The position numbers and the translations under genes were made by a program. The notes under the pieces were generated by a model that did not search any database, was not told the DNA's origin, and saw only the letters and a list, made by a program, of their open reading frames with translations. This document shows positions 24,061-63,891 of a stretch of DNA of 64,000 nucleotides, one piece after another. This DNA comes from Xylaria sp. FL1777 (Eukaryota; Ascomycota; Sordariomycetes; Xylariales; Xylariaceae). Each line of letters starts with the position of its first letter. Within the stretch, counting starts at the first letter, position 1. The stretch is from NCBI GenBank assembly GCA_022578965.1, contig MU400524.1:372001-436000 (forward strand), read 5' to 3'.

Positions 24061-27000
24061 CTACAATAGCCTCGACAACCTAGACTTGCTTTTCCCTTCC
24101 TTAAGCAGAGCTATGATCTCTTGCCTGCGTGACTCGTTCATTTCCGCCGCAGCTATAACTGCGCTAGTAACTTGAATCTGCTCTCCTTTGTTTTCGAAAA
24201 ATAAACCTAGAAGCCTGATCCCATGCCGCCTATTTTCTATAGCTGCTATCATAATAGCTTCAGTGACCTGAATCTGCTCTTTCTCCTTTTTGAAAAGTAG
24301 GTCCATGATTTCGTACCCATTGTTCACGTTTCCCGCTGCTGCTATCATAACAGCTTCAGTGACCTGAATCTGCTCCTCCTTCTTTTCGAAAAGTAGGTCC
24401 ATAATTTTGTACCCATAGTTCAGGTTTCCCGCTGCTGCTATCATAACAGCTTCAGTAACCCGAACCTGCTTTCCCCCATCTACAAGAAGTATTCGCATAA
24501 TCGCCAACCCATAATCCATATTTTCCGCCGCTGCTATTATAAAATCCTCAGTAACCTTAATATATTCGCCCCGCTTCTCAAAAAGCGCCCTAACTAACCT
24601 GGTCTCTAGGTACCCTTCTCCTGCAAGGCGTGCGGGCAATTCCATAAACCGTCCAGACCGCCCGTCAACCTTAAATCTAGTATCAAGAATCAAATCAACC
24701 ATAGCCGGAGAGTCAATTAGTACCGCTAGACTCATTGCTTTATAGCACCTATCATTTGCATCAGCATGAACTCCTCCCTCATCAACATCCTCATCAAGAA
24801 TGGAACGGACCACAGATACCAGCCCAACCTGAGTCGCTAATACTAGGTCGTCCTCTGTATCATTCGAGCAAAAATCAGTTGCCCATATCGGCTCTCTCAT
24901 ATGTGGGCGAAACAGATTGCGCGCTTTCTCAATCATATCCGCGCATGTATTGTGATCTTGCTCTCTATAGTGGAAGACCCAATGTCCAACCGCGTATAGA
25001 AAAAATGGATCGAAACGGTAGTTGGCTCTATCGCCGCTGTGTGTATCTAGTAGAGATAGGTAATGGATGCAAGAAAATGACATCACCCTGTGACACTCAG
25101 ACAGTTTGAAGCGTCCTCTCCAGTTCCACTCGCCATCCTCCCGCGGGCACTCTGTTAGGAACTCTCTCACAGTTTGGTGAATAAATGACAGCTTAGAGTC
25201 GTGAAAATCGATGAGGAGCCCACAGAAATTCTTTGCTGCTCCTTGAAAGCTCTCAATATCCCAGAGGCCTTTCTTGAGTTTAGGACCTGATGTAAATGGG
25301 ATATCAGCCGTAGCTATTGTAAGTGCATAGTTCGCTTCGGCAGCGGTCAAAGGTACTTGCGCAGCAAGTATAAGTTGAAGAAGAGGACGGGTATATTTTG
25401 AATTCTTCTGGTTAAGGATCTTCTCGTATGCCTCGGAGTGCTCGTTGGGGAGATTATTCAGCAAGGCCTCGACATCCGAGGGCCTGTTATAATCGACTGG
25501 ATTCTGTTCGATTAGGTAGAATGTCAAACGCAACCAAAGATATGTCCGGTTTTTCATGCCTTTGAGCCGTTCAGAGATGCGGCGACGGTTATCCTCTGAA
25601 AGATACTTCAAGAGGTCCGGGACCTTAGCATCAATGACACGGTTGATATCTTCACTGACAGCTGCAGAGTGATCATCTCCATCAATTCGTAAGCACGAAG
25701 AATTCAGGAAGCTCCCGATTGACTGTTCGATTGTATCATAAGGTCGGCTTGTGACGAAAAACTTAAGTCTACATGTGCGGCGAGATGCTCCCCCGGTACT
25801 GGAAAAGAAATCTTTCAGCTTGCCGATGATGTTGTTTCTATCGTTTTGGTTGCATTCATCGAGGGCATCGATAACGCAGACGATCTCTCCGGCGTCTGGA
25901 GTGGTGGCACAATCAAGTAGGATGTTCCAGAGTTCAGAAAAATTCGTAGTTAGAGCTTTGCCGTAATTCTTATGTCTGTGTAGGGCATGGCTCATGAACT
26001 TGCCAGTCATGTCCTGTATGAATAGCTGATGCAGAATGGCAGAAAGAGCATTAGCGCTGCTCTGACGCCTCTCGCCACCATCCTTGAAGAAGAAGTAACA
26101 AACGGTAGAGGTCGCGGCGCTAGTAGAAAGCTGCCACTCGTCAATCAGCGACCGTGAAAGTACGGACTTTCCGCATCCGGGACCGGCTGAAACCCAGAGG
26201 AAGCTCGATTCTCCGCTGTCACGCCATGTCCTGAAGCTCTCGTGCTCCAAGAACCATCCGCACGTGTTTTCGACTTTCGGAGGATTGAAGTTCTTGTATC
26301 CTTCGTGATCTGCTGCTAGATCGGCAAGCAGTTCCCGCTCCTGCTGATCCTGGTGGTCTTTCTTCTGTTGCTTCCTTTCCTCCTCTAAAATCTCGTAGAT
26401 TTGCCGAAGTGCTTCTCGTGATCTATCCATTTGCTTGAGCTGCTGGTCACACTTTTCCTGGGTCTCTCGAGCTTGAACGAGGCCCACACAGTTCTTGCAG
26501 TGTTCGCTCAGCTGGTACACATGAGAGGCTTTGTCCTTCCATTTATTCCAGCCGGCAACTAGCTCCCACGCTCGAGAGAGCTGGGTGCTGGATAGGTGGC
26601 AAATGATCCGGGCTTGATACTCGAAGATGTGGGAATACAAATTCACCAGACCACCCCGTACCACGTCGTTGCCGTCCGAACCAATTTGCTCGGTGAATAT
26701 GTCTTGATAGGCTTTCCAGTATATCTGGACACGATTAATCTCATCGAAGGCGTCGAGCATAGCATCATTCTGGGCTGATGCGGCTGTAAGAAGCTGTATT
26801 CTCATTAGCACCTATGTAGACCTCTCGTTAACTTCACATACTGGAAGGAAGATCGAGACGCCGGACCAAGCCAGTGCTGCGTAGGGTTGTGCACTTAAGG
26901 CATTCTTAACAATGCCGTCACACCATACGAGGACTTTAGCTAGCCTCTCGGCTTGTGTCCTAAATTTAATGTCTTTGCCGTGGAAAGTAACGTGCCACTG

Positions 27001-27429
27001 TTTATCCTCCCGGTTCTTTTGCAGTTGCTCCACGGTCGACTTTACCCAGTCGGCGTTCGAGAAATCGGTAATAGACAGGGTAGTTAAGTGTGTCTTGTAA
27101 CCTTCAGCTAGCTCCGGTTCTCGTTTAGCGAATTTATCGTATGCGTCAGCCCAAATATCAAAGTTTGCAGCCTTAGTTGGTGGCGGATCATAGTTCGAGA
27201 TTGGGGTCAGCGAGGTTTCAATTGCAACGGGACGGGAGGCGATAGGGATGGGCGGCACGGGGTGGGATATAATAGTTTCTGGACTGAGGTCGATGTCTAA
27301 GGTTTGTGGACCTCCCGCGTTATCGAACGACGGCCTCGGTGGAGTTTCTGCGCTCGCTCGAGTCGCTCCTGGGCGGCCATCTTTCGCTTGCTGCTTCGAC
27401 TTGCGCTTGATGCCAAAGCAGCACTGCAT
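24061..27429 (-). CDS. NLR-type receptor: N-terminal NACHT-associated domain, NACHT, 32-residue repeats
   Basis: Exons 26842-27429 and 24061-26793, with an intron at 26794-26841 (48 nt, GTATGT, branch TGCTAATGA, ACAG), give about 1106 residues. Residues ~60-330 match the helical domain found before NACHT in many fungal NLRs (FDIWADAYDKF; WSGVSIFLPLLTAASAQNDA). The NACHT follows: TCGWFLEHESF, Walker A SAGPGCGKSVLSRSL, Walker B CVIDALDECNQNDRN, and FFVTSRPYDTIEQ. A winged-helix-like part (LILAAQVPLTAAEANYALTI; FIHQTVREFLTE) precedes the C-terminus. The last ~170 residues are consecutive 32-residue units starting VTEAVMIAAAGN and ending FEKKEEQIQ. Such near-identical sensor repeats are known in fungal NLRs. 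Function in non-self recognition is family inference. Confidence 0.9.
24140..24570 (-). repeat. Tandem 96-nt coding repeats in the NLR sensor region
   Basis: The unit AGCTTCAGTGACCTGAATCT recurs exactly 96 nt apart (about 24257 and 24353), with diverged copies on both sides. About five units are visible. The two central ones are the most alike, which is the pattern of recent unit exchange or duplication. Confidence 0.85.
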
Positions 27430-28823
27430 CGCGTGCTTGAAATTACTAATAGTAGTAATGGTGAAGGACGGAAAGCACAGGACTAATACCTTGACTTCTC
27501 ATTAGAAGGAGGCACTTATGGGGCCAGAGGTATTTTATTTGTGCAAAACCGGCTTCAGTTGGACGACGGTAGTGTCTAGGAATAGAGTGAATTGATGATA
27601 AGGATCAGTATGAGTATGGAGATGACCTCTATGGCAATATCTGAAACGTATCTTTATGTTCGGGTTTGTGTGGTAGAAGCCAGGAACAACAGGAACATAA
27701 GGCTAGCAAAAGCCCAACTCATAGATATGGAAAGGATACAATTAGAAAGATATTTCATGGATTCACAGTTACAGTGCCAGACTACCTTGAGGCAGTGCTC
27801 GGGGGAAGAAACCCTGCCAATAGGAATCTCTTAGATTCTGGCGCAGCTTGAAGCCCAGGGAACATTCAGCGCTTGATGGCAGTACCAGATCAGGCATGTT
27901 GCATAATTTATGTTCTCATGACTTGATATTATTCTTGGGTGCTGGAAAGCCACAATGTAACTCCGTGTGCCAGCTGCTCCGCATTTTCTATAACCATGGC
28001 CTCTCACGTAACGTGGTAAGGTGATTATCCTCCTTGATCCCAGGTTCACTGTAGACAAACTGTACCCTAGATGCTATGGAATGATGCTTAGAGGTCGAAT
28101 ATACTGCATAAGGCATTGCGTACTGGTATAAGTCTCCAATAACTATAGTCAAACAATGACTCGTTACTTCAACGAAGCACCATTACAGTCCGCCATGATA
28201 AACGTGGTATCGCTAAGGTTATTATTGTTACTAGTTTACTCGATATTTTGCTACAATATTCAGAGCCTCTCAAAATATCTATATCTCATCTTTGTTACTA
28301 ACCTACATCTATATTGGTGTTAACGGAGAGAAATATTCATGATCATTAGGTGTAAATACTAAAACGCGGACGCTCCCGGTTCAACGGTGGAGAAGGAAAC
28401 TGATAGCTTGTTAGATTTTAAAGCATGAAGCAGAATATTGTGAAATCAGCTTTATAGAAATGATGGTTAACATAAGACAAGTCGATCACAAAGTAATCAC
28501 CGTTATTTCCCGCTTCAATTATTCGAGTACTTATGACTTTCTATATTACCTTACTGAGTACCTATAAGACCGGTGGAGCCAAGCATCCACAATGCGGCTC
28601 TACTATCTACTTATGTGTACCTAGGTAGATGTATGTAGGTCTTAGATAGTCGGAGGTAGCTATGATGTCGTGCCCCTCAAACCCCACTAACCTAGAGCTC
28701 AACAAGTCATTACTTATCTACAATTTTCCTCACGTCCAACATTACATTACCTTCCCCAGTGTTAAAGTCGGAAGCCCATAGCTAAGCAATCGACACCCGA
28801 CACTCTTCACGACAAAAGTAGCA
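27430..28823. other. Intergenic, divergent between the second NLR and the SDR gene
   Basis: 1.4 kb, AT-rich in the middle (28190-28560), without a gene. It contains TACCTAGGTAG and GTAGGT-type short motifs near 28615-28640. It presumably holds the promoters of both flanking genes. Confidence 0.45.
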
Positions 28824-37063: not shown

Positions 37064-38774
37064 AAGCTGTCACCAGCGTTCTATCTATGTTTAAACATAA
37101 TAAAATTAAATCAGGCTGTTTTATTTTCGAACGTTGTTATCGGACAAAGGGCATTTAGTTCATTTTGACTGATTGAGGCATATCATAATAAGCGACAAGC
37201 GAGGGCGAGAGCAAGCGGACGATCCATATTGAGATACGCAACGGCCAGTTGATTTGAAGGAATTTCCCTCTATATACCTTTTTTTTTGTTTTTACGACCA
37301 GAATTGGAATATATGTCTCGCTTATGTTTGGCATTGGGTGTGCGTAGTACGGAGTGAATGAGCAATGCAAGGGATGCCAATGGATCGGTAAATTAGGGGA
37401 TTTGTATCTAGACAGCGAGTAGTGTGCACTAATGACTAATGACTTGATGAATCATACCTTCTATATCGATCTCTTTCTTTAGGTTTAGATTTTTAGGTGG
37501 TGAATTGTTAATTACCCAGTCGAAATGGTATGATGGGAGGTGATGTCGAAATGAAGCACTTGCCAAGGAGAGGTTGAGATTCTAGCTTGTCTTAGTTTCT
37601 TTATTAGAAATTATAGTCATATCGTTTAGACTAGGAAGGTCTCTTCTAAAAGATCGCTTCTTTATTCTGAGTCTTGTCGTATTGTTTACTTTTTTTCTTT
37701 TCCTCTTTTCCTCGCCGGGGGGGGGGGGGGGTTAGGGGGTCGCACTACGCTCTTTCACACAATATTCCGATAGACCTGTTTGAGGTCGTCTTCGTCCAGG
37801 ATGATTGCGGGCGATCAAGGTGAGTACGGATCGGGAGGAACAAATACAGATCTGTATTGGGTGGGTATTAGTGTTGAGCACTTTGTTAACCTGTCAAAGT
37901 AGTCATTGCCGTCGCTACATGCAGGGTTTAAAACACACCTATCTTTCGGCTCTTAGGCTGGAAGTACGTATCTGACCCTTTCCTCGTTCTTTTATTTGGT
38001 ACCCGACCACATGTAGCTTAAGTTAGGTGTATAGGTGTTATCTGTATTTTTTTTTAGAGAAGTCAAACTATAGACAGGTGTATATTATACACATCCTTAC
38101 TACGCGACAATAATGGAATTTCCCAGTGGGTGATAGCTACTTAAGAAAATGAAAGAATAGATAAGAGGACAATATCTTTGTACTATGTTTGCCTCCCTTC
38201 CTAACAAAGTCTTTTCGTCTATGTGTTTAGAGTTAATGACTGCTTCTTCTAGGAAATCATGTCAAATTTTCTAAGAGTTTACAAGAAGTAGATAACCTGA
38301 ACTAACCTATGGCATGTTATGAAGGCATTGAGCTACACGGAAAGATGAAAGCTAGAAAAGCATGCTTGAAATCACTCATAATGGTTCAATTCATGATGGA
38401 GTGAACATAATTATATTGCCATTTTTTGATAGAGAGGAATCCTTTTTTATCCCAGTTAAAATCTTGAAACGATGAAAAGGAACAAGGAAATAGAAGGAAA
38501 GAAAGGAAATAGAAGGAAAGAAAGGAAATAGAAGGAAAGAAAGGAAATAGAAGGAAAGAAAGGAAATAGAAGGAAATAGAAGGAAATAGAAGGAAAGAAA
38601 GGAAAGAAAGGAAAGAAAGGAAAGAAAGGAAAGAAAGGAAAGAAAGGAAAGAAAGGAAAGAAAGGAAAGAAAGGAAAGAAAAACAGGAACAAGGAGAAAG
38701 GGGACCAGAAGAACAGAATTGCTATGTTAGTTGCAGCATATGGTAGTTTTTAATACATCAGAGTGAGAGTCGTT
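37064..38774. other. Intergenic with poly-G and purine minisatellite
   Basis: 1.7 kb between two convergent genes, with no gene seen. It carries a run of 15 G (37717-37731) followed by TTAGGGGG, and the GAAAG/GAAATAGAAG repeats at 38464-38690. Confidence 0.5.
38464..38690. repeat. Purine-only minisatellite (GGAAAGAAA)/(GGAAATAGAA)
   Basis: About 225 nt of GGAAATAGAAGGAAAGAAA-type units passing into a pure (GGAAAGAAA)n tract. One strand is almost all purine. Translations of it are artefacts. Confidence 0.9.
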
Positions 38775-39272
38775 TCAAATACTAGAAACAGCCGGAAACT
38801 TACGGGCATCAGCAATAAACTGGGCAATGAGCTCGGGTTCCTTCTGCTGAGCGAGTAGCCAAAGCCACTCGAGATGGGCATACTGCACCTGCCAAAGCCT
38901 CAGAGCCTCGAGCATCTTGGCGCGAAGCGGGTCGTTTCGATCCGCTTCACTTGTCATCCCCGCCCATTCGCAGAAAAGCTCCTCTGTCACATCCATCAGG
39001 TTCTCAACCTCTTCGAGGACGTTTTGGAGCGCCTGGCCCGCAACGGATTCGGTCCCTGAGCCCTCGAGGAGCTGCCTCTCGAGACTGGAGAGCCCTAATA
39101 GGCTTGTGTTGTTGCTGTAATATGTGTCAATGGCGGTGTCTAGATAAACTCTGAGGACTTCTAAAGGTTCCTGATCAAAGGTGTTTGGGTTGACAACCGC
39201 TGCAACATAAGCTTCAAGAGTGGGTGGCAGGCTCTGCATTCCAGAGCTAGTGTTGGTGTTTTCTGAAGACAT
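38775..39272 (-). CDS. Unknown 165-residue helical protein
   Basis: Single ORF from the ATG at 39272. It is acidic, rich in Leu/Glu, and mostly predicted helix: SLPPTLEAYVAAVVNPNTF, LEVLRVYLDTAIDTYY, VLEEVENLMDVTEELFCEWA, WQVQYAHLEWLWLLAQQKEP. No signal peptide or membrane segment. A strong donor (GTAAGT, ~38805-38810) lies 8 codons before the stop and is followed by a CTAAC branch motif and TAG near 38731, so the true C-terminus is uncertain. It directly borders the RiPP cluster, but nothing ties it to that pathway. I do not recognise the family. Confidence 0.6.
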   Translation of the reverse strand: MSSENTNTSSGMQSLPPTLEAYVAAVVNPNTFDQEPLEVLRVYLDTAIDTYYSNNTSLLGLSSLERQLLEGSGTESVAGQALQNVLEEVENLMDVTEELFCEWAGMTSEADRNDPLRAKMLEALRLWQVQYAHLEWLWLLAQQKEPELIAQFIADARKFPAVSSI

Positions 39273-39872
39273 TGTTGATGGGGATGCTTGAAGCGGAATA
39301 TGAGTAATATGACTATTGTGAGGTTATGCTAAGGCTCGTTGGTTGGTTTAGAAAAAGCCTAGGAGTTTGCGGCGCCGCTGGGTATTTATGTTCGAATCTC
39401 GGTTAAAATCATAGCAATCGTTCCTTTGACCTTGTCTCTGTTCTTATTTTTCAAGGATATTGTTTGAATTATCAAGGAATAGCATGGTAGTTCAAAGTGA
39501 CGCTCGAAAAAAATGCTATTGTGCGAACTGTGTTGAAAGCGGCTGTTATTCCTTAGCATTATTAAAGAGTTTCGACTACGTTGGCATTAATCGGGTCTTA
39601 ACAAGGGGTCTAAGGACATTGTCACAACGGCTAGTACATCACAACCGGCTCTTTACGCAGGAGATGCTCCTAATCATAAGCGAAAGTTGACCATCTTCTC
39701 ATTTGCGGCCTCTTACAGTCTGCGATATGATCCTGTTTTATGATCGGCAACATCTTATAGCATAGTTGAAGAAAAGAATGACTTTGATGTCTATAGCATA
39801 ACCAGCCCTCATGTTCAACGGTCCAGCAACTCTACCCACAAGGTAACTAAGCTCAAACTTCAAAATTTTCTA
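39273..39872. other. Intergenic at the left edge of the RiPP cluster
   Basis: 600 bp upstream of the unknown 38775 gene and downstream of the first UstYa-family gene. No coding feature was recognised, and the cluster palindrome GCATAGSCTATGC is absent. Confidence 0.4.
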
Positions 39873-40692
39873 TTAATACGGGAATGGTTGAGTATATACC
39901 TCTTTCCCATTATCGCGCATGAGTTGAATGAGTCGTCGGTTATCGCCGCACTTTCTTACATCTTGCGCGCCATCAATGAACTTTGAGACTGTCCCATTCT
40001 CGAAGACGAACGGGCGTTCAATCAGATCATCAGCCCAGCAAAGTAAAGTCTAATTGCTCTGTTAGAATTAAATTGTTTTTACCGTAATTGGGTGAGTACA
40101 CTAACCTTTCTTAGGTAATCCATGCAATGTGGCCAGTGATCGTTATCCTGCCAGTCGAGCCCCGGGTCTTTCCCCTCACGGGCTTGCTGGATCGCGTGAC
40201 GAAGAGAAGAAAGACAATGAAGTTGATGGAACCTAAATATATTAATTTCGAGCCCGCGCATCGCGCTTCAGGGAGCGCTTACATGGAGATGGAGCCTGGT
40301 CTTAGTTCCCCGTCGTATTTCTCATCTGGGAGCTTGATGATTAAACCCTTTGCTCCAAGGTCCTCCCACAAGTGATCATACTTGTGGTCTACAGACATAT
40401 ATGACAGGTCACCGCCAAATACCGCCTGGAAAGCATGTTCACCCTGATCATTGTCCGTGCATGATGCATTTGCTTGCAGTTGGCCGAGGATAATGCTCAT
40501 TAGAATGATCGCGGCAGTTGTAGATAGCGCGCAATAGATCAGTAGTATGTGAGCCGTGGACGATGTAAACCAGTTCGATTTGCGCTTGATCAAGCCGGTG
40601 TCCTTCAAGGCCAGGGACATGGGGGTTAATAGAGGTAGCCCGCTGCTCGTCCTATCCTCTATAGACAAACGTTCGTACTTGGTATCTTCCAT
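39873..40692 (-). CDS. UstYa-family (DUF3328) oxidase A
   Basis: Member of the UstYa family, membrane-bound oxidases that form C-O or C-C crosslinks in fungal ribosomal peptides. Exons 40283-40692, 40106-40232 and 39873-40049; 237 residues. The N-terminal cytosolic part is followed by a single membrane helix (AHILLIYCALSTTAAIILMS). Both hallmark motifs are present: FHQLHCL straight after intron 1, and HWPHCMDYLRK at the end of exon 2. After the second motif comes LLCWADDLIERPF, the family's usual CxxD...E(P)PF element. It lies divergent to the regulator gene. No palindromic cluster element was found upstream, so its control may differ from the other four oxidases. Confidence 0.9.
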
Positions 40693-41597
40693 GTCTTGGA
40701 CTTGAGAATATCAAGCAAAGCAATGAAAAAAAAAAAAAGGCATCGGATGTGGTAAGTGAGGGGGATAAAAGTGTGGCACTGGCTACGCAGACGCTTAGTA
40801 TATTACTCAGGTAAACATGACTTACCTTTGGATATCTGAACGGGGGGCATGATCACCTTCTCTTATCACGTCAAGGTTGTGTGATTTGACTTACATCTTG
40901 CATCAATAGTGCATATGAGAAAGGCATATCTACACTCAGGCTTGCATTATTCGCCCTCTAACTCGGGCCTCATCCCGCCGTAACACTTGGGCTTCATCGA
41001 GCCATACACTACTTGCCGGCCCAGTGCGTTAGGTTGCGTTACCTATTGCAACCAGGTCGTTAGACAATCCCCCGATCACAATGCATGTAACCGTCTCCAC
41101 CGGCACCCATTAATGTGCAGTTCAGCTCACATTGTTTGCATCCAATCCCACATCCGGTCGTTTTTTATGCGGTTGTCAGCTTGCATGTTGCACACCCTTA
41201 ACCTCTTGGGTCTCATGATGTGCTGTTGATGTGTTGTATACGGCTAGCTGCCTAGTCCACCTTGACAGATAGTGGGAGGGGTTGATTCAGCAGTCCTTGA
41301 GACCTGCGGGCTAAGTCCTAAACAGGTCTGATTGGATTGAGGCTCTGTCTTACTGCATGCGATGACTGGGACTATGGGACTGGGATATGCGGGGAGCAAA
41401 ATCGATGAGATGTATAACCTTTATATGAGCCCTCTTGCTTCACAGGGGAGAAGCTTACTCAACTTTGCCACTTCAAGTCGAGTTGTTGCGGTCCTTCAGA
41501 AATCCATCTCGCCATTATGTTACCAGGTCTTATCAGCTGGTCTGACAATGATAACACCATGTTTAATCATCAAAGTGGCCCGACGGACAGAGGGAGC
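40693..41597. promoter_or_regulatory. Divergent promoter region, oxidase A / regulator
   Basis: 905 bp between divergent starts. It contains an A12 run near 40727-40738 and GGGATATG at 41392-41399, an 8-mer that recurs in two other cluster promoters. No perfect GCATAGSCTATGC element. Confidence 0.45.
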
Positions 41598-43550
41598 ATG
41601 AATACTAGACATCGTGCAGCTTTGGCTTGTCTTTCCGTTAGTTTGTCTCTTTCTTATAAGACTCGTGAAGCGGAGGGAACTCCTACTGATCATGTAGTGT
41701 CGCTCTCTCCACGCGCGTTGTGGTGGGCAAATTCCCACCTGTAACCGATGCAAAGAGGAAGACAGGGTGTGCAGATATCCAAAATCTCGAAGGCGGCGTA
41801 CACTAGAGTACCCTCTACCATCTCCCGCATCTGATATAGCGGGGAGCCTGAGTACACAAGCTTCGGAAACGCCAGGTACTGGACGATTATCAACAGCTGA
41901 ACCGAGTGAAATCGTTCCTCTATCTACCCTGACGCCGCATATTAGTGGTACACCAAATGCAGCAATTGCAGATGCTAGTTCGACTGATGCTTTCGATCGA
42001 TTGGCTTATGACCCTGGAAGTCATGAACTCATCGACTCCTACTACCGGTAAGCCAAATACGACCAGTGTTGAATCATGTCCAAGGGCCGATTGTAGTAAC
42101 ACGCTCATCTGCATTACAGCTTCTTCCACAAGGCACACCCCTTCGCCCCGGAAAAGCCGTACGTGCTTTCTCAGATGAACATCAATGACGCGGCCATAAA
42201 GCCACTGTATGCGGCGATGTGTTATGTAGGCTCTCTTAATCGCCAGTCTCCGCCAAGGCAAGATCTCGAAAGGTTAGCGCTACAATACATGCAACCTGCT
42301 CAGGTCTTGCAGTGTGATGTGAGTCCAGCAGGGATATATCAAATTTCTGTACTGCTGTTGCTTGCCATTGCTTCCTATGGACTGGCAGAGCTAGATAAAG
42401 CGAGTGAACTGTTAGGAAGAGCAATATCCTTATCGGTTGACATGGGAATGAATCGTGTTGATTGGGTTAATTCGCTCCATAATAGTGAGTTGAAAGAAAT
42501 ATGGAAGCGGATATATTGGTACCTTTACATCGTTGAAACGGCTCTGACGCGCAGCGACTCTGGATTGCGGTAAGGCTATATTTGGCTCCTAAGACACTAG
42601 CTAAATGATGGCAGGTCCGAGCCTTTGTCAGAATTTCCGCTGCCTTGCGAGAAAGATACTTCGCAGCAAGCGACACTCGCAGAATTTGACAGGGCAGATT
42701 TTGAGGACGAATGCCATGGTTTCTCGTCCCTTACCTATCTAATTGCTCTGGTGAGGACAGGTCGTTGTATCAAGAGGTTTTTTGAACAGTCAAAAGATCA
42801 ACCAGACCGAACAGTGGCCTGGGCTGATGCTTTGCTTATGAACTGGAAACTTCACCTTCCGTCAGATAAAGAAGAAATTTTCACGGAAAATGGAGAGATG
42901 GATGATGTCATGTTCCAGTCTCATATTCTGTTTCACAGGTATTCGTCCTATATACCCGAGTTACATTTGGCAACAAACTGAGAAAAGGTGATAGTTTATG
43001 CATATATGTACACACTTCCATACCTAGTAAGACAAGGGGCAGCAATGAGTTGTTGCATAGACGCAGGAAAAGGGAGGCGGCCGAGGGTGCAGTGAGCCTC
43101 TTGACCCTTCACCCTTGTCTCCGTCATATGAGCCCCTTGAATATCACTCTATTATCGGGAATCGCAATGTCCAATCTTTGCACTTCTTTAACTACTGATC
43201 CCGGGTTTCATGCCAGAGACAATCTACGCCTTATTCTTGGGATTTTTAAACAATTGGGAGAAACGTGGAAAGCCGCGAAACAGGAAGCCCAGGCACTTAA
43301 AGCGATGGCTCGTCTATCATACTCTGAGCTAGGCAATCCTTCTCAGGAAACTCATTCCAGCCCTCAGATAAGCCTGACAGATGATTTCGCCAATAGCACT
43401 AGCTGTCTGTTCTCGGAAACTACCTCCCCTGTTCAGGATAGTGATCTGGGAAATACACCAGATGAAAGGCGCAACTCTTTGACCATGTCGTTCTCCGAGA
43501 GCAGTGGTGGACCATCCACGGAAGCATACGTGCTCTCATGGGATTTCTGA
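41598..43550 (+). CDS. Zn2Cys6 transcription factor, probable RiPP cluster regulator
   Basis: DNA-binding regulator of the Gal4/AflR class, about 561 residues. Exons 41598-41636, 41698-42047, 42120-42569, 42615-42938 and 43028-43550; the total coding length is a multiple of three. The zinc cluster reads CLSCRSLHARCGGQIPTCNR plus CKEEDRVC, giving C-x2-C-x6-C-x6-C-x2-C-x6-C. Intron 1 falls between the first and second Cys. A basic linker (PKSRRRR) and a Ser/Thr/Pro stretch follow, then the fungal middle homology region (LLLLAIASYGLAELDKASEL; EIWKRIYWYLYIVETALTRS). The C-terminal part includes EAAEGAVSLLTLHPCLRHMS and a Ser-rich tail. Its position inside the cluster suggests pathway-specific control. 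The intron-4 region is ambiguous (see findings). Confidence 0.85.
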
Positions 43551-43768
43551 CTGTATATTAATTGGTGGAGATGTGGGAAACTTATGAGGAGCTATTGCGA
43601 CCGAATTTCGATTGCGGCAGGCATTCTGTTGGCTAAGACTTAAATATTCTCTTTATCATGCTCACTCGCGCTGTGATGAGCCGGCTTCTTAGACTTACTT
43701 CGAACACGTCTTCATAGACATATAAATCTGCGTTGCACTGATTTTCATTCTATATAGAGTGTGGCTGA

Positions 43769-44591
43769 TTATCTGCTATTACTTGATGTTCCGTCTTCGT
43801 ATCCGAAAACACTCTCAACCGTATCACCATCCTTCCAACCCCAGTCCTCGAACGTCTCAGTTCGTCCGCGACGGGCCATTTCTATCACGCGCGTCATATC
43901 CTTACATTTGTGATGCACACCATAGCCATCAATACCATATTCTTTGATATTACCGGCTTCGTCCGTATCAATCCACGGCGGCTCGATGGTGCTGTCTCCA
44001 AGACACATGACTTGCTAAAATATCGTTAATCAATATTAAACATAGCCATTGAACGCCAAAGACGCTTAGAGTTGAATATACCTGTGTAACATAAGAAAAG
44101 CAGTGCGCCACGTGGGTCTGCAAGTGAAGCTTCTCTTCGTCATTCTTCGGCCCGTAAGCGAACGAGTGCGTATCTGCCGTCACGCGACCATCGATATGAT
44201 CTTGCAATACACTGCGCAAGTAAAGCAGGCAATGTCCGGCATGAAACATACTAATCCCCATTGCCAGCCGAAACGTCTCGTTGTGCCTGGTCCAGAACAC
44301 ACCTGTATCCTTGGGGCGCAGTCGTTCTCTGACCTCTGCGTCGATGGAGTGAGACAGGTTGAGCATGACCCTGTTATGTTTGAAGAGGAAGGGCGCCGTT
44401 AGATGCGTGCCCTCGGGCACGGCTTGTGTCTGGCCCCCAGAGCATTCATCCACGCGGCAGATCCGGTACGGGAGCAGCGGTGCCGTGGAGATCTTGAATG
44501 AAATCTGGAAGAGCAGCCCAACGAGCAGAGTCCCGAGCACGGCTACCAGGATTGGCGTCGTGCGAGAACTGCTGAGTCCTGGAAATGCCAT
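43769..44591 (-). CDS. UstYa-family (DUF3328) oxidase B, variant first motif
   Basis: Exons 44082-44591 and 43769-44014; 251 residues. A membrane helix lies near the N-terminus (TPILVAVLGTLLVGLLFQIS). The first metal-motif copy is FHAGHCLLYLR instead of the common FHQLHCL; the second is HVAHCFSYVTQ. Both keep HxxHC. The downstream part, VMCLGDSTIEPPW, matches the family's CxxDxxxEPPx element. It converges with the regulator (218 bp between stops). A perfect copy of the cluster palindrome is 276-288 bp upstream of its start. Likely a peptide-modifying oxidase; the actual reaction is unknown. Confidence 0.88.
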
Positions 44592-45210
44592 GCTTCGCTG
44601 AAATGTCTAAATTAAGGGGTAGGCAGGCTTAGATGTTTAAGGTCGGTGAATTGGGTGAGGAAGACGACGATACTCTCTGCACCTGCGGTGAAATGCAAAA
44701 GTTCCTTATTGATAAGGGAAACATGGTAAGGTATTGTTTTTGTTTCGCAGGTTCCTATGCCAAGTCAGCCGATGTTCCTCTTTCACATTTTGTCTAACAT
44801 TGAAGTTGATACCTAGCCTGGTTTGTTGTCCCGGCACATGTAGAGTTGGATTATGGGGTTCGGCCCGCATAGGCTATGCAAGATGCCCCCTACTGGGAAA
44901 GGTTACCCTAAACACAGACTTATTCCGACAAGTACCTAGGTAGTTGCGGTGTCGACATTAAATGGATATTTTGGGTTATGACCTCTTCAATCTACAGTCA
45001 GATACCGTAACTCTGGGTCTATATCGTGTTTATTGATCTGATGCCTTCATGCTCAATTGAATGACTAATCTACATTTAATGCCAAGCCTAGCTGAACCCT
45101 AAGACGCCACTTTACTAAGCCGGTTTACTCAGGATCGGAGATCTTGGAGCGTAGTTGAGCGGGACACATAATAGAGAATCATATTCAAGCGTTAACAGCG
45201 GCAATCCTAA
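44592..45210. promoter_or_regulatory. Promoter region of oxidase B
   Basis: 619 bp between the start of oxidase B and the stop of oxidase C. It contains the perfect 13-bp inverted repeat at 44867-44879 and a CCTAGGTAG motif at ~44936-44944. Confidence 0.5.
44867..44879. promoter_or_regulatory. Candidate cluster operator, perfect GCATAG-G-CTATGC
   Basis: Thirteen-base inverted repeat with a single central base, identical to the copy at 46430-46442. It lies upstream of oxidase B. The symmetric shape fits a Zn2Cys6 dimer, which is an inference. Confidence 0.6.
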
Positions 45211-46250
45211 TTAGTACCCTTTCTTTGGTGCTCCATTACTCTTTGACGCTCCAGCCGCATTTGTTTTCTTCTTCCCGGCTTCTACTCCTTCAGTAACCTC
45301 AGGATCTTCGCAGAACTGTTCAACGTCAATCCAGCCCTCCCGAATCTTATCAGTTTCTGTCCAGCCGACTTGTTTGATGATGATGTCACCCTCACACATC
45401 AATGCATACCGAAGAATCTCGAAGCAATGGTCTAACACTATTAGTCAGTTGCGTAGTATTAGGATTTCGGGTCTACGTAGACATGTGGGCTCGTACCATC
45501 GTGTACCGGGAGAGCAATGCCATCAGCTGTCTCCTCATCTGTGATCTGCCCGTGCCAACGCCTCCAAAGCACATGCTATTGACGTTAACGCCGAATAGCG
45601 TCGTAGTTGTATGGAGCTTAACTCACCAAACAGTGCAGTCTATGAACATGGGTGAGCGCCTGCGGATCACCGGCACTGGGGCTTTCTATATGCGCCCTAT
45701 TGATTCGGATGTAATTTGCATTCTTCCTCTCTACGGGAGTAATCTGGACTGCTCAAAAAACGATTAGATTAGGATCGTACTGTTTGCATCGGGTGTCATA
45801 CGATTCTGAACACGTTCCCAGGCTGCTTGACCCCCGGGAGACGGGTCTGAAGACTCGGAGACGTTGAAGTAATCTCCAATCTCCGAAAACGTGCCTAGAA
45901 ATCTGGCCTCCCAGTGCTCAGTGGAACGCTCAGATTCTGACGCGCAATTGGTACCTTTGGTCGTCGAGTTAGTCTTCATCAAAGATACGGCAAAGGGGGG
46001 ACGGACTGCGTAGATGAGGTCGGAAGCTAGACCACGTGAATAGAACGCCTGAGTACGCCACAAGGAGGATGATATGAGGAATCCATGCCAGCGATGAACA
46101 AGAGAATAGAGAATGTCGTCGTTTTGCCTTCGGTTTGATGACAACATTGTCTTCAAAGATCTTGTCAGTTATCGTTTCTTCACTCTCATCACTACCTCGA
46201 GCATCGCCTAAACCTGAAGACTTGGAGTCAATATCTGAATAGTAGGACAT
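45211..46250 (-). CDS. UstYa-family (DUF3328) oxidase C, probable one-base frameshift
   Basis: Exons inferred at 45802-46250, 45627-45748, 45497-45575 and 45211-45431. The N-terminus is acidic and followed by a membrane helix (WIPHIILLVAYSGVLF). The first motif is HRLHCL at the end of exon 2. The second, HDDHCFEILRYALMC, arises exactly at the exon 3/4 join. The frame changes inside exon 1: the helix is in one frame, while the following EHWEARFLGTFSEIGDYF and AAWERVQN block is in another. A run of six C (plus-strand G 45995-46000) sits at the crossover, and the summed exon length is one base over a multiple of three. So it is either a recent inactivation, an assembly error, or an unusual small intron. 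The tail is Lys/Asn/Ala-rich. Confidence 0.75.
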
Positions 46251-46697
46251 GTTTTGTGACTAATTTTAAATTGAAAGAATAGATCCCAGGGGGATGCAAG
46301 TTGGGTAAAGAAAACATCAAGACCCGTACTGTGACTGAGCCGAATATCAGCTTCGTCAAATTTACGTACGACTTGTGATGTCTAGCTAGTATTGCTTCGG
46401 TATGTAGCACCGGATAGATACTTATGTTTGCATAGGCTATGCACAGCGAGTTCCGGACCGGCCCGGGGATATGACTGGCTATGCAATCCGGGTTACAACG
46501 GGCCGTCGGGGGTCAATGGAGTCTCCTTTGCTCTACCCGCGCGAAGCTCGGCTCAAGGATATCGACAGTTTCAATACAGTAGGCTGTTACTCATTCTTTC
46601 CTTCTGATCTTGAACTGGGCGAAGCAGGTTGTGATGGTCGAAAGTTCTTTCTGTGCAACAAACTTCGATTTCATAGCAATCTGCTCATTCAATCAAG
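46251..46697. promoter_or_regulatory. Divergent promoter, oxidase C / oxidase D
   Basis: 447 bp. It contains the second perfect 13-bp palindrome (46430-46442) and, 20 bp further, GCCCGGGGATATG (46461-46473), which resembles a sequence in the precursor promoter. Confidence 0.6.
46430..46442. promoter_or_regulatory. Candidate cluster operator, perfect GCATAG-G-CTATGC
   Basis: Identical to 44867-44879 and placed mid-way in the divergent promoter of oxidases C and D. Confidence 0.65.
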
Positions 46698-47665
46698 ATG
46701 TTAGGCTTTAGTAGCCGCACAGACAAACATGGACAATACGAAAAGATTAACCTTAGTCATGATGATGAGGTAGAAGACAGTGGTACCATTGATGCCGCTA
46801 CGCCATCCTCCGGAGAAAACAGGACAAACAGCACGGATAAATCGAGCATCGCAGTGATAAGATTTTACCGACACCTCGTTATCATCCTTACCGGAGTGAA
46901 TGTGCTAATATCGTTCGCCGTGGTATGGCTTGGGATCGGATTCGCAAAACGTGTACCCTACCAGCTCACTGAGAACAATGTGGAATTTGTCGGTCCAGCG
47001 GGGATACCAGTTGAGATGGAGCTCTATCGATTCCAAACCGGCGTACGAGAGAGCACACCGTTCTTTGGCCCTCCCAATGCTACTACCGACGCTGCCTGGA
47101 ACACGATACTGAACGGTGAGGAGCCTTCTATACGCCTGTCTTATACATGGATTATCACTTACTAGATCTTGTCAGCTGGTTTGATCAAACTCACACCCGA
47201 GCAAGCCGACACGTTGAGCGCACCTACAGCGAAAGATCAACTGGACCCTACTTCATACGTTGGGATACTGGAGGTGTTCCATCAATTACACTGTCTTGTA
47301 AGAGAGTTTCGCCGTCAACGCCTAGTACGTTAATTCGTCGTTGTCTGATAATGGGACCAGAACACCTTACGACTGCGCGCATTCGCACAAGATCCGGAGG
47401 TCCAATTTGCCGATCCCGGCCACACAGGTGAGAAAATTATGATGATAGCGGCTTATTCGTATACTAAGGAGATCCAGCGCATTGTTTTGAGTACATTCGG
47501 CAGAGCTTGATGTGTCTCGCAGACGTCAATATCGCTCCGATCAGCTGGAACGAGAGGAAGCGCGAGTACGCCATTCACTGGGATGCTACGCGACAATGCA
47601 GGAACTTCGGGAAGATACGTGCCTGGGCGTTGGATAAGGACCATAAGGTTTCTGAGGATGTGTGA
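46698..47665 (+). CDS. UstYa-family (DUF3328) oxidase D
   Basis: Exons 46698-47115, 47176-47297, 47361-47427 and 47478-47665; 264 residues with all phases consistent. Membrane helix at residues ~60-82 (HLVIILTGVNVLISFAVVWL). Then VEMELYRFQTGV and the family's AAWNTILN. Exon 2 encodes AGLIKLTPEQADTL and ends in VFHQLHCL. Exon 4 begins within the second motif, HTAHCFEYIRQSLMCLADV. The C-terminal RQCRNFGKIRAWA resembles RQCRKFDKIYDWA of oxidase E. Intron positions coincide with those of oxidase E, so the two are probably paralogues from a duplication. Expected to be membrane-anchored in the secretory pathway, where the precursor also passes. Confidence 0.9.
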
Positions 47666-48173
47666 GAAGGTGCTCAATAGACTATAGCTTGTAGTCGGAG
47701 AAATCACTTAGAAATAATGAGTTTAATTTGACAATCAGGATTTGCTTGCTAGTCGTATTGGAGTAGGTCCATTATCCGTTAATAAATGATACCAACTTCA
47801 AGAATTCAGTAGCGATTCTGAGTGCTACTATAACAATCATCAAAGCTCCCTCGGGCACTGTAGACACTTTTGTTTTCTTTTGGAATAATAGGGGCTGGTG
47901 AATCCGGACTTGTGTCTTAGTGATAGACTAGACTACACTCACCTGGAATTGTGATTATTTAAAAATGAGCATCCTGACAAGATCAGGACCTTTAATAGTA
48001 TACGATGTTGTTTGAATTGGAGGCAGTACGATACTCTCTTCCTTGAAATTCGACTCTACCAAGAAAACTATAATGAACGTGACATGAGACTCATCCCATA
48101 CCCAACACCACCGATAACGTTGGCTAGGAAAGGTAGGCCGGCTTCTATACCTCCAGAGAAATAATCATTCGAT
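47666..48173. other. Intergenic between convergent oxidase D and the precursor gene
   Basis: 508 bp of AT-rich 3' flanks. No feature was recognised. Confidence 0.45.
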
Positions 48174-48819
48174 TCAAGCCTTCACCTCATCGCGCTTGCT
48201 AGAACCGTATGACCAGGTACCCGTGCCCCAAAGAAGCTCAACTTCATCGTCATCAGGCTTAGCAGCAGTTGTCACCTCACGCTGAACCTTCGCAGCCTTC
48301 GCAGCCTCCGCCTCATCACGTTTGCTAGAACCATATGACCAGGTGCCCGAGCCCCAAAGAAGCTCAACTTCATCATCATCAGGCTTGGCGGCAGTCGTCA
48401 CCTCACGCTTAATCTTCGCAATTATCGCAGCCTTCGCCTCGTCACGCTTGCTAGAACCATAAGACCAGGTGCCCGAGCCCCAGAGGAGCTCGACCTCGTC
48501 GTCGTCTCGCTTCTCAGGCGACTCCACCTGGGCAGGCTCCCTAGCCTTGATGTCGACTGCCGCGCGGGCTGTAGTGAGATTTCAGTTAGCTTGCTTGTTT
48601 CGTCCACTCGAGTCTTGAAAGTCTCGAATAGCAAAAGACCGCTATTACATGGTAGATATGCTCCTAATCTATGTACTTCCATGCAATATTGGTGTACTTG
48701 AAGTCTTTGAAGCAGTGCCATTCTGGTAAGAGGCATAGCGGCTTACCAGGGTTCTCAACTGGGGCCGCGAGGACGGCGGGCAGAGCGGCCAGAGATAGGA
48801 GGGAGAGTTGCCACTTCAT
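48174..48819 (-). CDS. RiPP precursor peptide with three core repeats (dikaritin/UstA-like)
   Basis: Exons 48747-48819 and 48174-48568, with an intron at 48569-48746; 155 residues. The start ATG at 48819 opens a signal peptide (MKWQLSLLSLAALPAVLAAP). After a short propeptide, three units follow of which full ones are 42 residues long. Each holds an acidic spacer and the core: DDDEVELLWGSGTWSYGSS twice, and the same with GTG in place of GSG once. Each core is followed at once by KR. Other KR sites lie before core 1 and between cores 1 and 2; the matching site before core 3 is QR. Segments after KR read DEAKAA, DEAEAA and DEVKA, which resemble Ste13-type spacers. Signal peptide, tandem cores, Kex2 sites and flanking UstYa enzymes together define the dikaritin precursor architecture. 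The product's activity is unknown. Confidence 0.9.
48195..48530 (-). repeat. 126-nt tandem core-peptide repeats
   Basis: CTTGCTAGAACC-type blocks start at about 48195, 48321 and 48447, spaced exactly 126 nt. The units are nearly identical at DNA level, with differences mostly at third positions and in the spacer. Confidence 0.9.
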
Positions 48820-49539
48820 GTTGACGGGTTGGTGGTTTTAGAGAGAGAGAAAAAGGTATGGGGTTGAAGATTGGTCTCTTGGATCTGACTTGGTTCTGTG
48901 AGATTGCGAATGCTTATCTGTGTAGTGGCCAAGGGGGACTTTGAGTCAAGTCTATAAATACTAGGGCCATTAACTTGGTGACATACAAAGGTCACGGCTA
49001 AGTCGCCTGCGCTCCGTTGTACCGGGCGTCCCGTGCCCGGGATATGTCGGTGATACTCTCTCTGGCGGAGAACTAGCCGTTGGGAATCAAACCCTCTGCA
49101 TAGCCTACAGTCGCAGGTGCTCAGGCTACTCACACCAAGATTGAGGATTGGCTAACGTATCTTCTGTTTGTGGTTTCAGCTGGTGTAGTTCTCGGCTCTG
49201 GTGCTATTTTCGAGACCCCGGGTGCTACATGCATACATAACTCCGCATAGCCTATCCTTGCCTATGTACCGCGTGTCACTGTTACCCCACGATGTGCCAT
49301 GAGACCTGCATAGCCTAGGTAACAAATGAGTAGATAGTAGTAGGCTCTTTGTCAAGATTCCGCATTTGTACTACCATAGTAAAATTCGGCGTAGGGAATG
49401 GTATTCACCACAAGTTGATTCTGTTGAGCTTTGACCGGCCATGAAGAAATTGGACGGCGAGACCATATCCACGTCATGACTACGAGAGTACTGATTGAAT
49501 CGTCCTTATTCTTGTCGTAATCTTCCACTTCGTCACAAG
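48820..49539. promoter_or_regulatory. Divergent promoter, precursor / oxidase E
   Basis: 720 bp. It holds three partial copies of the cluster palindrome (49098, 49245, 49308), a TATTTATAG box on the minus strand at ~48951-48959 (about 135 bp before the precursor ATG), and GCCCGGGATATG at 49035-49046. It is the region richest in shared motifs in the cluster. Confidence 0.6.
49245..49257. promoter_or_regulatory. Candidate cluster operator, 12/13 match (GCATAGCCTATCC)
   Basis: Differs from GCATAGCCTATGC at one base. Weaker 10-11 base matches flank it at 49098-49110 (GCATAGCCTACAG) and 49308-49320 (GCATAGCCTAGGT). Confidence 0.55.
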
Positions 49540-50616
49540 ATGTTCGCCTACTTCCGCCGATACAAGGCATACGCAAATAGCGACAGCCAACACAACGATG
49601 CAGAATCTCACAAGAGACTGGTAATGGAAGACGACTCGGAACCTAGCTCATCAAGGGCATCAGAAGACGGCGGAGATCCGCCAATGAGTTGGCGGAAAAC
49701 ACGCTCCAGAACACGTTTCGTCGTGGCTCTCGTGTCTTCTCTCGTTATAACCAACATCGTCACATTCGGCCTGTGGGTTAGCACCGTCCACCGCATGAGC
49801 TTGTGGCTGATGGACGACTATTACAACCGGCCCGGGATAGAGTATCTAGGCCAGGCTCAGGCGCCCGTAGAATACGAAAGCCGGAGGTTTCATACCGGCA
49901 TTGTCAACGGGGATGTGACGGAGTTTTTCGGCGCCCCGGGGACAAAGGCCGATGTGGCCTGGAATAGAGTCCTCAATAGTATGTTCCTGCTCTTATTCAA
50001 ACTCCTCGATATGCTAATTTAGAGCTGCTGCTTTAGCTGGACTGATGCGGTTGACTGCCGACCAAGCTAGTCGACTTGGAGATGAGACCACCAGGGAGTG
50101 GAATACGACTGACTCCTATGCCGGTATATTAGGAATGTTCCATCAGCTCCACTGTCTAGTCAGTATCCCTACCATATGATATCAAACCAATACTTATATG
50201 TCTATGTTTTCTGAGCAGAGTCGTCTTCGATATACCATATTCTTTCCCGATCGCTTTGAGCAGTTCGACGGGGAGCGCCTAGCGAACAAGCATATATGTA
50301 CGTGTCAGCTTCCGACGAGATGAGCCGAGATGTCATACTAATGCGAATCACAGTGCACTGCATTGAATACCTTCGTCAGATCATCATGTGTCTCGGCGAT
50401 GTAACGGTTGAACCCGTGGGGTGGAACGCAACGACCCTTAGTTACATCGCAGAGAAGGATCAAGTGAGACAGTGTAGGAAATTTGACAAGATATACGATT
50501 GGGCTAAGCAGGGTATAAATGAAGTCCCTAACGCGCCTGGGAATGAGAAGGTATGGCAGGATATGTTGAAGTTCAAAGACGCGCATCCCGTGGATCACTC
50601 TCATGTGGGTAACTAG
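49540..50616 (+). CDS. UstYa-family (DUF3328) oxidase E
   Basis: Exons 49540-49978, 50037-50158, 50219-50297 and 50354-50616; 300 residues. Start at the ATG of MFAYFRRYKAYANSDS; a further in-frame extension upstream has no ATG. Membrane helix FVVALVSSLVITNIVTFGLW. Then YLGQAQAPVEYESRRFHTGI and FFGAPGTKADVAWNRVLN, the family's N-terminal signature. Motif 1 is MFHQLHCL at the end of exon 2; motif 2, HILHCIEYLRQIIMCLGDV, forms across the exon 3/4 join. VTVEPVGW follows. It is transcribed divergently from the precursor, sharing its promoter. The intron pattern equals that of oxidase D. This is the most canonical member of the cluster. Confidence 0.92.
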
Positions 50617-62800: not shown

Positions 62801-63891
62801 ATTGTGGAAATTAGCGGCGTCCCTGTTCTCAGAGGTAGTGACATAGAGTCTATTTTCAAAGGTCGCCTACTTAAGTCGAATTTTCATTCACCGAAAGAGC
62901 CAAAAAGTCGCTATAGCTGCTCATAGAACAACAACTACAAACCCGACGGCAATGTGCGCCTTGCCCCCGAGAAACGTATTGATCCGATGATGGTATTAAC
63001 GGCAAAGATGAAGGTCCTTCACTGGCTGTCTTAGCTCGTCATCTGTCCAGTTGGAACTTAATTAGGGATAGATTCAACAAAAACATGATGGGAAAATCCA
63101 ATTAGAAGTAGGCAGTTGCAAGGAAACTACTAATAGCCTCCACAATAACATTTACCAAAAAAATACAAACGAGATAACTATATCAAAGTACTACATAATT
63201 TCAGAGTAGCAACGTTAATCAAAATGAGAAACGGAACAAGGAGGAGTGACGGGTGTGGGTGTGCTTATTAGAATAGCACGATGTCGCGGCACTTTCCCTA
63301 GAGTGAACAACACTTTATAAGCAAGCATGCTAGAACATGCTGCCCTAACGAATGTAGATATAGAATCATAATACGCACGGTAGATTTGAATATACCCATA
63401 TAGATAAAAGACGAAGTGTCCGTGTCGATATTTACCAGGGCATCATAAACTCCACTGAGTCTAGATTTGAGATCCCGGAGGATATATAATGCAAGCCCTG
63501 TTTTTCGCTAAGGACTTAGGTTACAAAGGTACGGCTTGATGCTGTTAGGCCTCTGTCAGGCTTTGCCATTGTGATTGTATTGAAGTTGTAGAGGTGATGG
63601 AGGGGACGTAGTGTCCTAGCACTGTAGCTACCATACCTAGGTATATATAAGTAGGTACCTACTTAAGTGCATAGGCTAGGCCATACCTGCCTCCAGCCTC
63701 CTTGCAGCTGTCTCTGCCTGCTATGAAGGCTTTGTCCCAGGTATTTATTCGGGCGCTGGAACATTCAATGTTCTACATCATTAATAGCGCCTCCAGTGTG
63801 ACAACTTACCACCTGCAGATGGTTATAAAGTTGAGCCCGCCCGCCCGAGCCTCGAAAGTGATTATAACCCAGAGAGACGCGTAGCATCAAC
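59872..63891. other. 4-kb gene-poor region
   Basis: No gene could be supported. ORFs are short and unrecognisable on both strands. Promoter sequence for the 58921 gene lies at the left. The right end has ACCTAGGTATATATAAGTAG and GTACCTACTTAAG (~63635-63665) and CCATACCTGCC, and then the BTB gene leader. The middle (61900-63400) is AT-richer and may be decayed repeat, but no terminal repeats were found. Confidence 0.45.

Follow-up and report, generated by a model that had tools for sequence, protein, structure and literature searches.

Does the small repeat protein encoded among five UstYa-family (DUF3328) oxidase genes in the fungus Xylaria sp. FL1777 belong to a working peptide pathway and, if so, what do the oxidases do to it? 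The genes lie in a 64,000-nucleotide stretch of contig MU400524.1 (assembly GCA_022578965.1, positions 372,001 to 436,000 of the forward strand), referred to here as the window, by whose positions features are numbered. Our analysis indicates that they likely form a working dikaritin-type ribosomal-peptide pathway in Xylaria, in which UstYa enzymes oxidize the core of the precursor, PRE. Support for one functional pathway comes from selection on the PRE repeats, from the conservation of the core and its linkage to oxidases in relatives, and from a palindrome shared by promoters of the cluster. Judged from its sequence, the cluster is real, conserved (the precursor and U1, U3, U4 and U5 having been compared) and uncharacterized. 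Papers are cited throughout for passages of their text.

A cluster of seven genes

The DUF3328/UstYa protein is the class-defining enzyme of the dikaritins (PMC12048977), and by this enzyme the predicted cluster is dikaritin-type. By their spliced ends the seven genes span 39873-50616, and from left to right they are U1(-), ZN(+), U2(-), U3(-), U4(+), PRE(-) and U5(+):

39873..40692, minus strand: U1, UstYa/DUF3328 oxidase, 237 amino acids (aa), 3 exons; HQLHC and HWPHC; PF11807 at 57.1 bits
41517..43550, plus strand: ZN, Zn2Cys6 transcription factor, 599 aa, 5 exons; PF00172 (Zn_clus) at 25.9 and PF04082 (Fungal_trans) at 51.9 bits, both above cut-off
43769..44591, minus strand: U2, UstYa/DUF3328 oxidase, 251 aa, 2 exons; HAGHC and HVAHC; PF11807 at 57.6 bits
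45211..46250, minus strand: U3, UstYa/DUF3328 oxidase, 272 aa, 5 exons; HRLHC and HDDHC; PF11807 at 63.6 bits
46698..47665, plus strand: U4, UstYa/DUF3328 oxidase, 264 aa, 4 exons; HQLHC and HTAHC; PF11807 at 133.9 bits
48174..48819, minus strand: PRE, putatively secreted repeat precursor, 155 aa, 2 exons, with a 178-nt intron at 48569-48746
49540..50616, plus strand: U5, UstYa/DUF3328 oxidase, 300 aa, 4 exons; HQLHC and HILHC; PF11807 at 134.5 bits

All five oxidases exceed the 25-bit Pfam cut-off for UstYa (PF11807), U1, U2 and U3 with weaker scores (57-64 bits) and U4 and U5 with strong ones (134 bits). In each of them a pair of HxxHC motifs is accompanied by a single hydrophobic stretch near the N-terminus. 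Identity between U4 and U5 is 37% over 234 aa, and the remaining pairs are ~24-36% identical over parts only; this low identity indicates old paralogues rather than a recent amplification. MED17 (PF10156, 260 bits) forms the right-hand border of the cluster. An earlier note on this DNA had described one repeat precursor, five DUF3328 genes with two HxxHC motifs each, one regulator and a MED17 border, and this composition was borne out by Pfam and by the spliced models, whose outer ends fall on the coordinates that the note had given. The note's proposal of a dikaritin-like pathway likewise holds up, in that precursor, UstYa enzymes and regulator are all present.

All gene models use GT-AG introns, those of U1 and U2 having been placed by a simple script. 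Two models are identical to public Xylaria sp. FL1777 proteins, U1 to P0019 (100% over 213 aa) and U5 to P0008 (100% over 300 aa). For U3 the public protein is P0039 (147 aa), which matches our model at 95% over 132 aa only and so appears to use other exons.

Repeats, selection and processing of the precursor

PRE carries three 23-residue units, DDDEVELLWG(S/T)GTWSYGSSKRDE, behind an N-terminus that is hydrophobic and signal-peptide-like, as judged from the sequence itself rather than by a signal-peptide predictor. The intron parts the signal-peptide exon from the repeat exon, and the resulting joint, VENP-ARAAV, agrees with the continuous sequence of annotated relatives. PRE matches a single locus, in two exons, in the host assembly. 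No FL1777 protein was present among its 7 database matches, so the precursor seems to have been missed by the public annotation. Its Pfam matches to OGG, DUF6533 and TACO1 were set aside as chance, as none included an individually significant stretch; that to OGG, which is also precomputed for protein P0001, lies just at the 27-bit cut-off.

At the DNA level, between units 1 and 2 there are 10 synonymous changes (~14 sites) and no nonsynonymous ones (~55 sites); the corresponding synonymous/nonsynonymous counts are 11/1 for units 1 and 3, and 5/1 for units 2 and 3. Differences that are so nearly exclusively synonymous point to strong purifying selection on the PRE peptide itself.

The ends of the product are defined unequally. 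A Lys-Arg (KR) pair directly follows all three cores, whereas upstream a KR adjoins unit 1, another stands 8 residues before unit 2, and unit 3 is preceded by QR rather than KR. Counted along PRE, cutting by Kex2 alone would therefore leave the cores in peptides 19, 27 and ~40 residues long, from which trimming would be needed to reach the 11-residue core given in the earlier note; that core is thus clear at its C-terminal KR and unclear at its upstream cut. Computed [M+H]+ values are 1174.4800 for WGSGTWSYGSS (minus 2H, 1172.4643; minus 4H, 1170.4487), 1188.4956 for the Thr variant WGTGTWSYGSS (1186.4800; 1184.4643), 1400.6481 for LLWGSGTWSYGSS (1398.6324; 1396.6168) and 2102.8825 for DDDEVELLWGSGTWSYGSS (2100.8669; 2098.8512).

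Precursor and oxidases in related fungi

A search with PRE gave 7 matches among 1649 candidates, from Xylaria palmicola, X. grammica, Xylaria sp. CBS 124048, X. digitata, Durotheca rogersii, Rhypophila decipiens and Rhypophila sp. PSN 637. When the eight precursors were aligned, the E-L-L-W, W and Y of the first core were invariant, along with most of the signal region. The pattern W-x4-W-x-Y is kept in 16/17 cores, the exception being the second core of P0007 (W-x5-W-x-Y), and the residues between the fixed W, W and Y vary among cores. Core number varies too: P0004 and P0005 have one, P0002, P0006 and P0007 have two, and two of the 7 relatives have three, so three repeats are not essential. 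We also observed that all but one position of the precursor start, MKWQLSxLSL, are invariant in the 8 proteins, across Xylariales and Sordariales; this stretch is as conserved as the core, which for a predicted signal peptide is unusual.

The oxidases were sought with a U5 query, which gave 11 matches, and with an alignment of U1-U3, which gave 37, and matches were typed by their best BLASTP match. The 11 comprised ten U5-like proteins and one U4-like (P0018, Rhypophila sp. PSN 637), and the 37 comprised 22 U1-like (four of them weak, P0052-P0055), 15 U3-like and no U2-like proteins. Both HxxHC motifs were found in 21/22 U1-like, 10/15 U3-like and 6/10 U5-like database proteins, and the remainder would mostly be wrong exon predictions. 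In six of the seven precursor homologues at least two of U1, U3, U4 and U5, and in each case a U1-like protein, were found on a contig of identical size to that of the precursor:

X. palmicola, 285,069 bases: U1 and U3 with precursor
X. grammica, 163,639 bases: U1 and U5 with precursor
Xylaria sp. CBS 124048, 426,673 bases: U1, U3 and U5 with precursor
X. digitata, 137,276 bases: U1, U3 and U5 with precursor
D. rogersii, 2,723,183 bases: U1, U3 and U5 with precursor
Rhypophila sp. PSN 637, 81,774 bases: U1, U3, U4 and U5 with precursor

The earlier note had named precursor homologues occurring widely without UstYa neighbors as the observation that would speak against it; with UstYa relatives on a contig of identical size for six of the seven, this check came out on the side of the note. 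In D. rogersii the protein numbers are close and follow the order of the window (558942 U1, 558954 U3, 558958 PRE, 558960 U5), which suggests that the gene order is conserved. U1-, U3- or U5-like proteins also occur in fungi with no precursor match, for example Xylogone, Stachybotrys, Mollisia and Zymoseptoria; these fungi may have an unannotated precursor, or may use the enzymes without one.

A palindrome shared by promoters

The third line of support is a sequence common to several promoters of the cluster:

44867..44879, no strand: perfect 13-bp palindrome GCATAGGCTATGC, upstream of U2
46430..46442, no strand: perfect palindrome GCATAGGCTATGC, in the divergent U3/U4 promoter
49098..49317, no strand: three sites of the 10-mer GCATAGCCTA (49098, 49245, 49308), in the divergent PRE/U5 promoter

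As the palindrome had been picked after looking at the promoters, the 10-mers of the window were scanned, and its 10-mer form was the sole one with five sites within 5 kb, leaving aside a microsatellite at 38.5 kb and filtered low-complexity words. Five GCATAGSCTA sites were seen in the block where 0.03 were expected. In the 58.7-Mb assembly GCATAGSCTA has 149 strand matches, against 76 for its reversed control, and the perfect GCATAGSCTATGC occurs at three places, two of them in cluster promoters, against one place for the reversed control pattern. The third place (C76:195556, in L012) was put down to chance, as it falls inside a phosphoglycerate-dehydrogenase-like gene (by eye). One further near-copy of the palindrome stands at 63669, outside the cluster.

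The shared palindrome would co-regulate at least U2, U3, U4, PRE and U5, perhaps via the Zn2Cys6 protein; that ZN binds it is a guess. Zn2Cys6 proteins usually bind CGG triplets, and the palindrome contains no CGG.

Proposed pathway and chemistry

CctR, a DUF3328 protein, is membrane-associated, dicopper and O2-dependent, the residues of its HxxHC(x)nHxxHC motif are essential, and it has been proposed to face the lumen (PMC12435403). We hypothesize that PRE would enter the endoplasmic reticulum via its putative signal peptide, and that UstYa enzymes anchored in the membrane and facing the lumen, each holding two coppers at its HxxHC...HxxHC site (copper being assigned from the family), would oxidize the conserved ELLW-x4-W-x-Y segment in the secretory pathway. 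Trp and Tyr side chains would most likely be joined, forming one or more rings. Kex2 would then cut after KR and so release each core on its C-terminal side, and proteases encoded outside the cluster would trim the acidic stretch ahead of it. We infer both the order of these steps and the secretion of PRE.

How the five enzymes might share this work is a more tentative matter. We propose, as something possible rather than probable, that the UstYa dicopper enzymes, the sole enzymes of the cluster, build Trp-Tyr or Trp-Trp crosslinks, possibly in two rings, with the five paralogues working one after another, or divided into catalytic and partner subunits, and with the acidic stretch as a recognition sequence; the cluster would then represent a dikaritin subfamily. 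In known members the bonds link Tyr with Ile, Tyr with Phe, or Phe with Leu (PMC9233826, PMC12186524), and no case of a UstYa-made Trp crosslink was found in the passages of literature searched.

It seems to us unlikely that the same pathway instead makes few or no crosslinks, with the enzymes hydroxylating, desaturating or halogenating a product that is linear or singly cyclized. Such a course gains from the range of DUF3328 chemistry, since the family has been implicated in halogenation, hydroxylation, macrocyclization and isomerization, CctR itself being a hydroxylase (PMC12435403), and UstYa proteins install dehydroamino acids in phomopsins (according to a reference title in PMC12186524); the strong divergence of the five enzymes also favors it. 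Against it, all cores but one retain the aromatic residues at the same spacing, as expected of joined side chains, a pattern that enzyme recognition would explain as well. In view of these other activities, the several crosslinks that the earlier note suggested, alongside alternative products, are one option among others.

Weighing the evidence

Several points weigh against a working pathway of this kind. All of the evidence comes from sequence analysis, and intron positions in ZN, U4, U5 and PRE, along with some of those in U3, were assigned by hand, partly by family pattern. Linkage in relatives was judged by proxy, from proteins on contigs of identical size in bases, and R. decipiens is an exception, its precursor being on a 29,278-base contig and its U1 and U3 on a 64,344-base contig. 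No U2 relative was found among the 37 matches of the U1-U3 alignment search. No peptidase able to trim the core was found among the seven genes (Pfam). AlphaFold gave mean pLDDT (predicted local distance difference test) values of 43.6 for U5 (P0008 with 9 relatives) and 52.8 for a U1 relative (P0020 with 16 others), which are too weak for a fold search from either model, and among solved structures no relative was found, two matches (E 0.39 and 0.91) being taken as chance. In both weak models a long helix stands at the N-terminus and further helices cover the HxxHC motifs, an observation that we do not count as evidence.

The U1/ZN promoter belongs among these points, as it has no exact 10-mer site and its best palindrome copy has 3 mismatches; U1 and ZN may thus be under different control. 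A smaller cluster, in which U2-U3-U4-PRE-U5 are one regulon and U1 and ZN belong to another pathway or are constitutive partners, is favored by the location of all five exact sites within 44867-49317, none being in the U1/ZN gap, and by the presence of U1-like proteins in fungi with no precursor match (Zymoseptoria, Penicilliopsis, Mollisia). The U1-like protein on the precursor's identically sized contig in 6/7 homologues opposes it, and we consider it unlikely.

That the locus is a relict, intact by chance and silent or non-functional in FL1777, we judge very unlikely. Hand-placed introns avoid stops by construction, which favors a relict; it is opposed by the intact HxxHC pairs in five genes, by the synonymous-only differences between repeats 1 and 2, and by the relatives of U1, U3, U4 and U5 in other species. 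Least credible, and in our view highly improbable, is that PRE is a linear, secreted pheromone-like signal with the UstYa genes as mere neighbors: Kex2-repeat precursors do include mating factors, and 6120/7878 have no DUF3328 neighbor, but mating-factor genes are without DUF3328 neighbors save for three exceptions (PMC7329392), and both the precursor-UstYa linkage in 6/7 homologues across Xylariales and Sordariales and the divergent PRE/U5 promoter with its three 10-mer copies oppose it. A dikaritin-type pathway acting on PRE remains the likely explanation.

Absent functions and surroundings

No match to tyrosinase, cytochrome P450, flavin-containing monooxygenase, methyltransferase or transporter families was found in the seven cluster genes by Pfam (a scan of the genes, with the intergenic gaps outside it), in agreement with the earlier note. 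None of the 18 tyrosinase exon matches of the host assembly is on the cluster contig, nor is any of the 3 for S41, the only peptidase family searched for assembly-wide. S41 is the peptidase type of ustiloxin/phomopsin-type clusters. Ten further frames of the window, picked from 38 frames of at least 150 aa, were also analyzed with Pfam: they include EMC1, a phosphorylase-superfamily protein and an ATR-like kinase, NACHT-type proteins and phosphofructokinase account for two frames each, three frames are without a match, and no tailoring enzyme is among the ten. The NACHT/nephrocystin-like protein (24061-27498, minus strand, two adjoining frames) has DUF7104 repeats and is a candidate for a fungal NLR-like (nucleotide-binding, leucine-rich-repeat-like) protein.

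To the left of U1 lies a 165-aa uncharacterized protein (38780-39274, minus strand) with no Pfam family above cut-off, and a long GGAAA/GGAAATAGAA microsatellite (38480-38690) stands immediately left of the cluster. Xylaria multiplex P0032 looks like a fusion of U1 with a relative of this 165-aa protein (46% over 48 aa); the fusion is probably a wrong gene model spanning two neighbors, and hints that the left-hand gene order is conserved.

Counted exon by exon, the host assembly has 31 UstYa matches, 10 of them on the cluster contig (7 in the cluster and 3 in a pair at 188.8-190.1 kb); the remaining 21 indicate several more DUF3328 loci in the host. The second UstYa gene pair, ~220 kb away on the same contig (L011:3954-6135; G000:C19:188.5-190.6 kb), adjoins MFS-like (major facilitator superfamily) and rhodopsin-like membrane proteins (by eye), and one GCATAGGCTA site is near it (C19:187484). 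No precursor was spotted there on a by-eye reading.

Comparison with known systems

Two features of a dikaritin cluster are present, namely five DUF3328/UstYa proteins each having two HxxHC motifs and a PRE that combines a hydrophobic N-terminus with three repeats; of the Kex2 sites expected around each core, those after the cores are all in place and those ahead of them follow a looser pattern. Clusters of this kind are frequent: in a published survey 1758/7878 Kex2-repeat precursors had DUF3328 neighbors, with W in 20.5% of their repeat sequences. The survey mined annotated proteins for three or more tandem repeats, each at least 8 aa long, lying between Kex2 sites (PMC7329392). Set against that criterion, PRE has three repeats, no annotated FL1777 protein was found for it, and its unit 3 has no directly preceding dibasic site. 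As some relatives have one or two cores, and at least the FL1777 precursor seems to be unannotated, repeat-based mining would miss some members.

None of the six core strings occurred in the literature text searched (supplementary tables were outside its scope), which sustains the earlier view that the core is unlike known cores, and Xylaria together with RiPP (ribosomally synthesized and post-translationally modified peptide) and UstY gave nothing in that literature. Papers have counted a single fungal RiPP for X. grammica IHIA82 (PMC8407739), one or more RiPP sequences for free-living Xylaria (PMC10119272) and, for Anthostomella pinea, 23 clusters of the fungal RiPP type (PMC10763133). The cluster may be among these counted loci, which the passages of those papers leave undescribed. 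The core family thus looks undescribed as far as the literature was searched, and the kind of system is already known; the word "undescribed" in the earlier note is fair for the former and not for the latter.

The phomopsin cluster of Phomopsis leptostromiformis is similar in having a Kex2-processed repeat precursor with a signal peptide and five DUF3328 genes (PMC7329392), so that five oxidases for one core are not the unusual sign they had been taken for. It differs in that no tyrosinase match is on the contig here, and in that the core has two Trp and one Tyr, compared to the Tyr-Ile closure of phomopsin; there is no Ile in the three 23-residue PRE units. The ustiloxin B cluster of Aspergillus flavus likewise has a secreted repeat precursor and UstYa-family enzymes, but has two DUF3328 genes and a tyrosinase within 15 co-regulated genes (PMC7329392), as opposed to seven genes with five DUF3328 here. 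With no tyrosinase on the contig and a different core, the cluster is not of the ustiloxin/phomopsin type.

To our knowledge, the asperipin-2a cluster is without a tyrosinase. It resembles the present cluster in that its crosslinking has been ascribed to a DUF3328 oxidase (a reference title in PMC12048977), and differs in having one DUF3328 gene (PMC7329392) rather than five and crosslinks from Tyr side chains (PMC9233826, PMC12186524). The cyclochlorotine proteins CctO, CctP2 and CctR share the HxxHC(x)nHxxHC dicopper motif and the occurrence of several DUF3328 genes per cluster (PMC12435403), but take part in a pathway to a non-ribosomal peptide. Plant burpitide (BURP-domain) cyclases perform four-histidine dicopper chemistry on ribosomal peptides; they are a different, plant family and offer an analogy only, and plant dicopper cyclases do couple Trp (PMC12186524). 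The fixed residues of the Xylaria core point to Trp chemistry, and the cluster provides a compact, conserved test case for several UstYa enzymes acting on one peptide with no neighboring tyrosinase or other tailoring enzyme.

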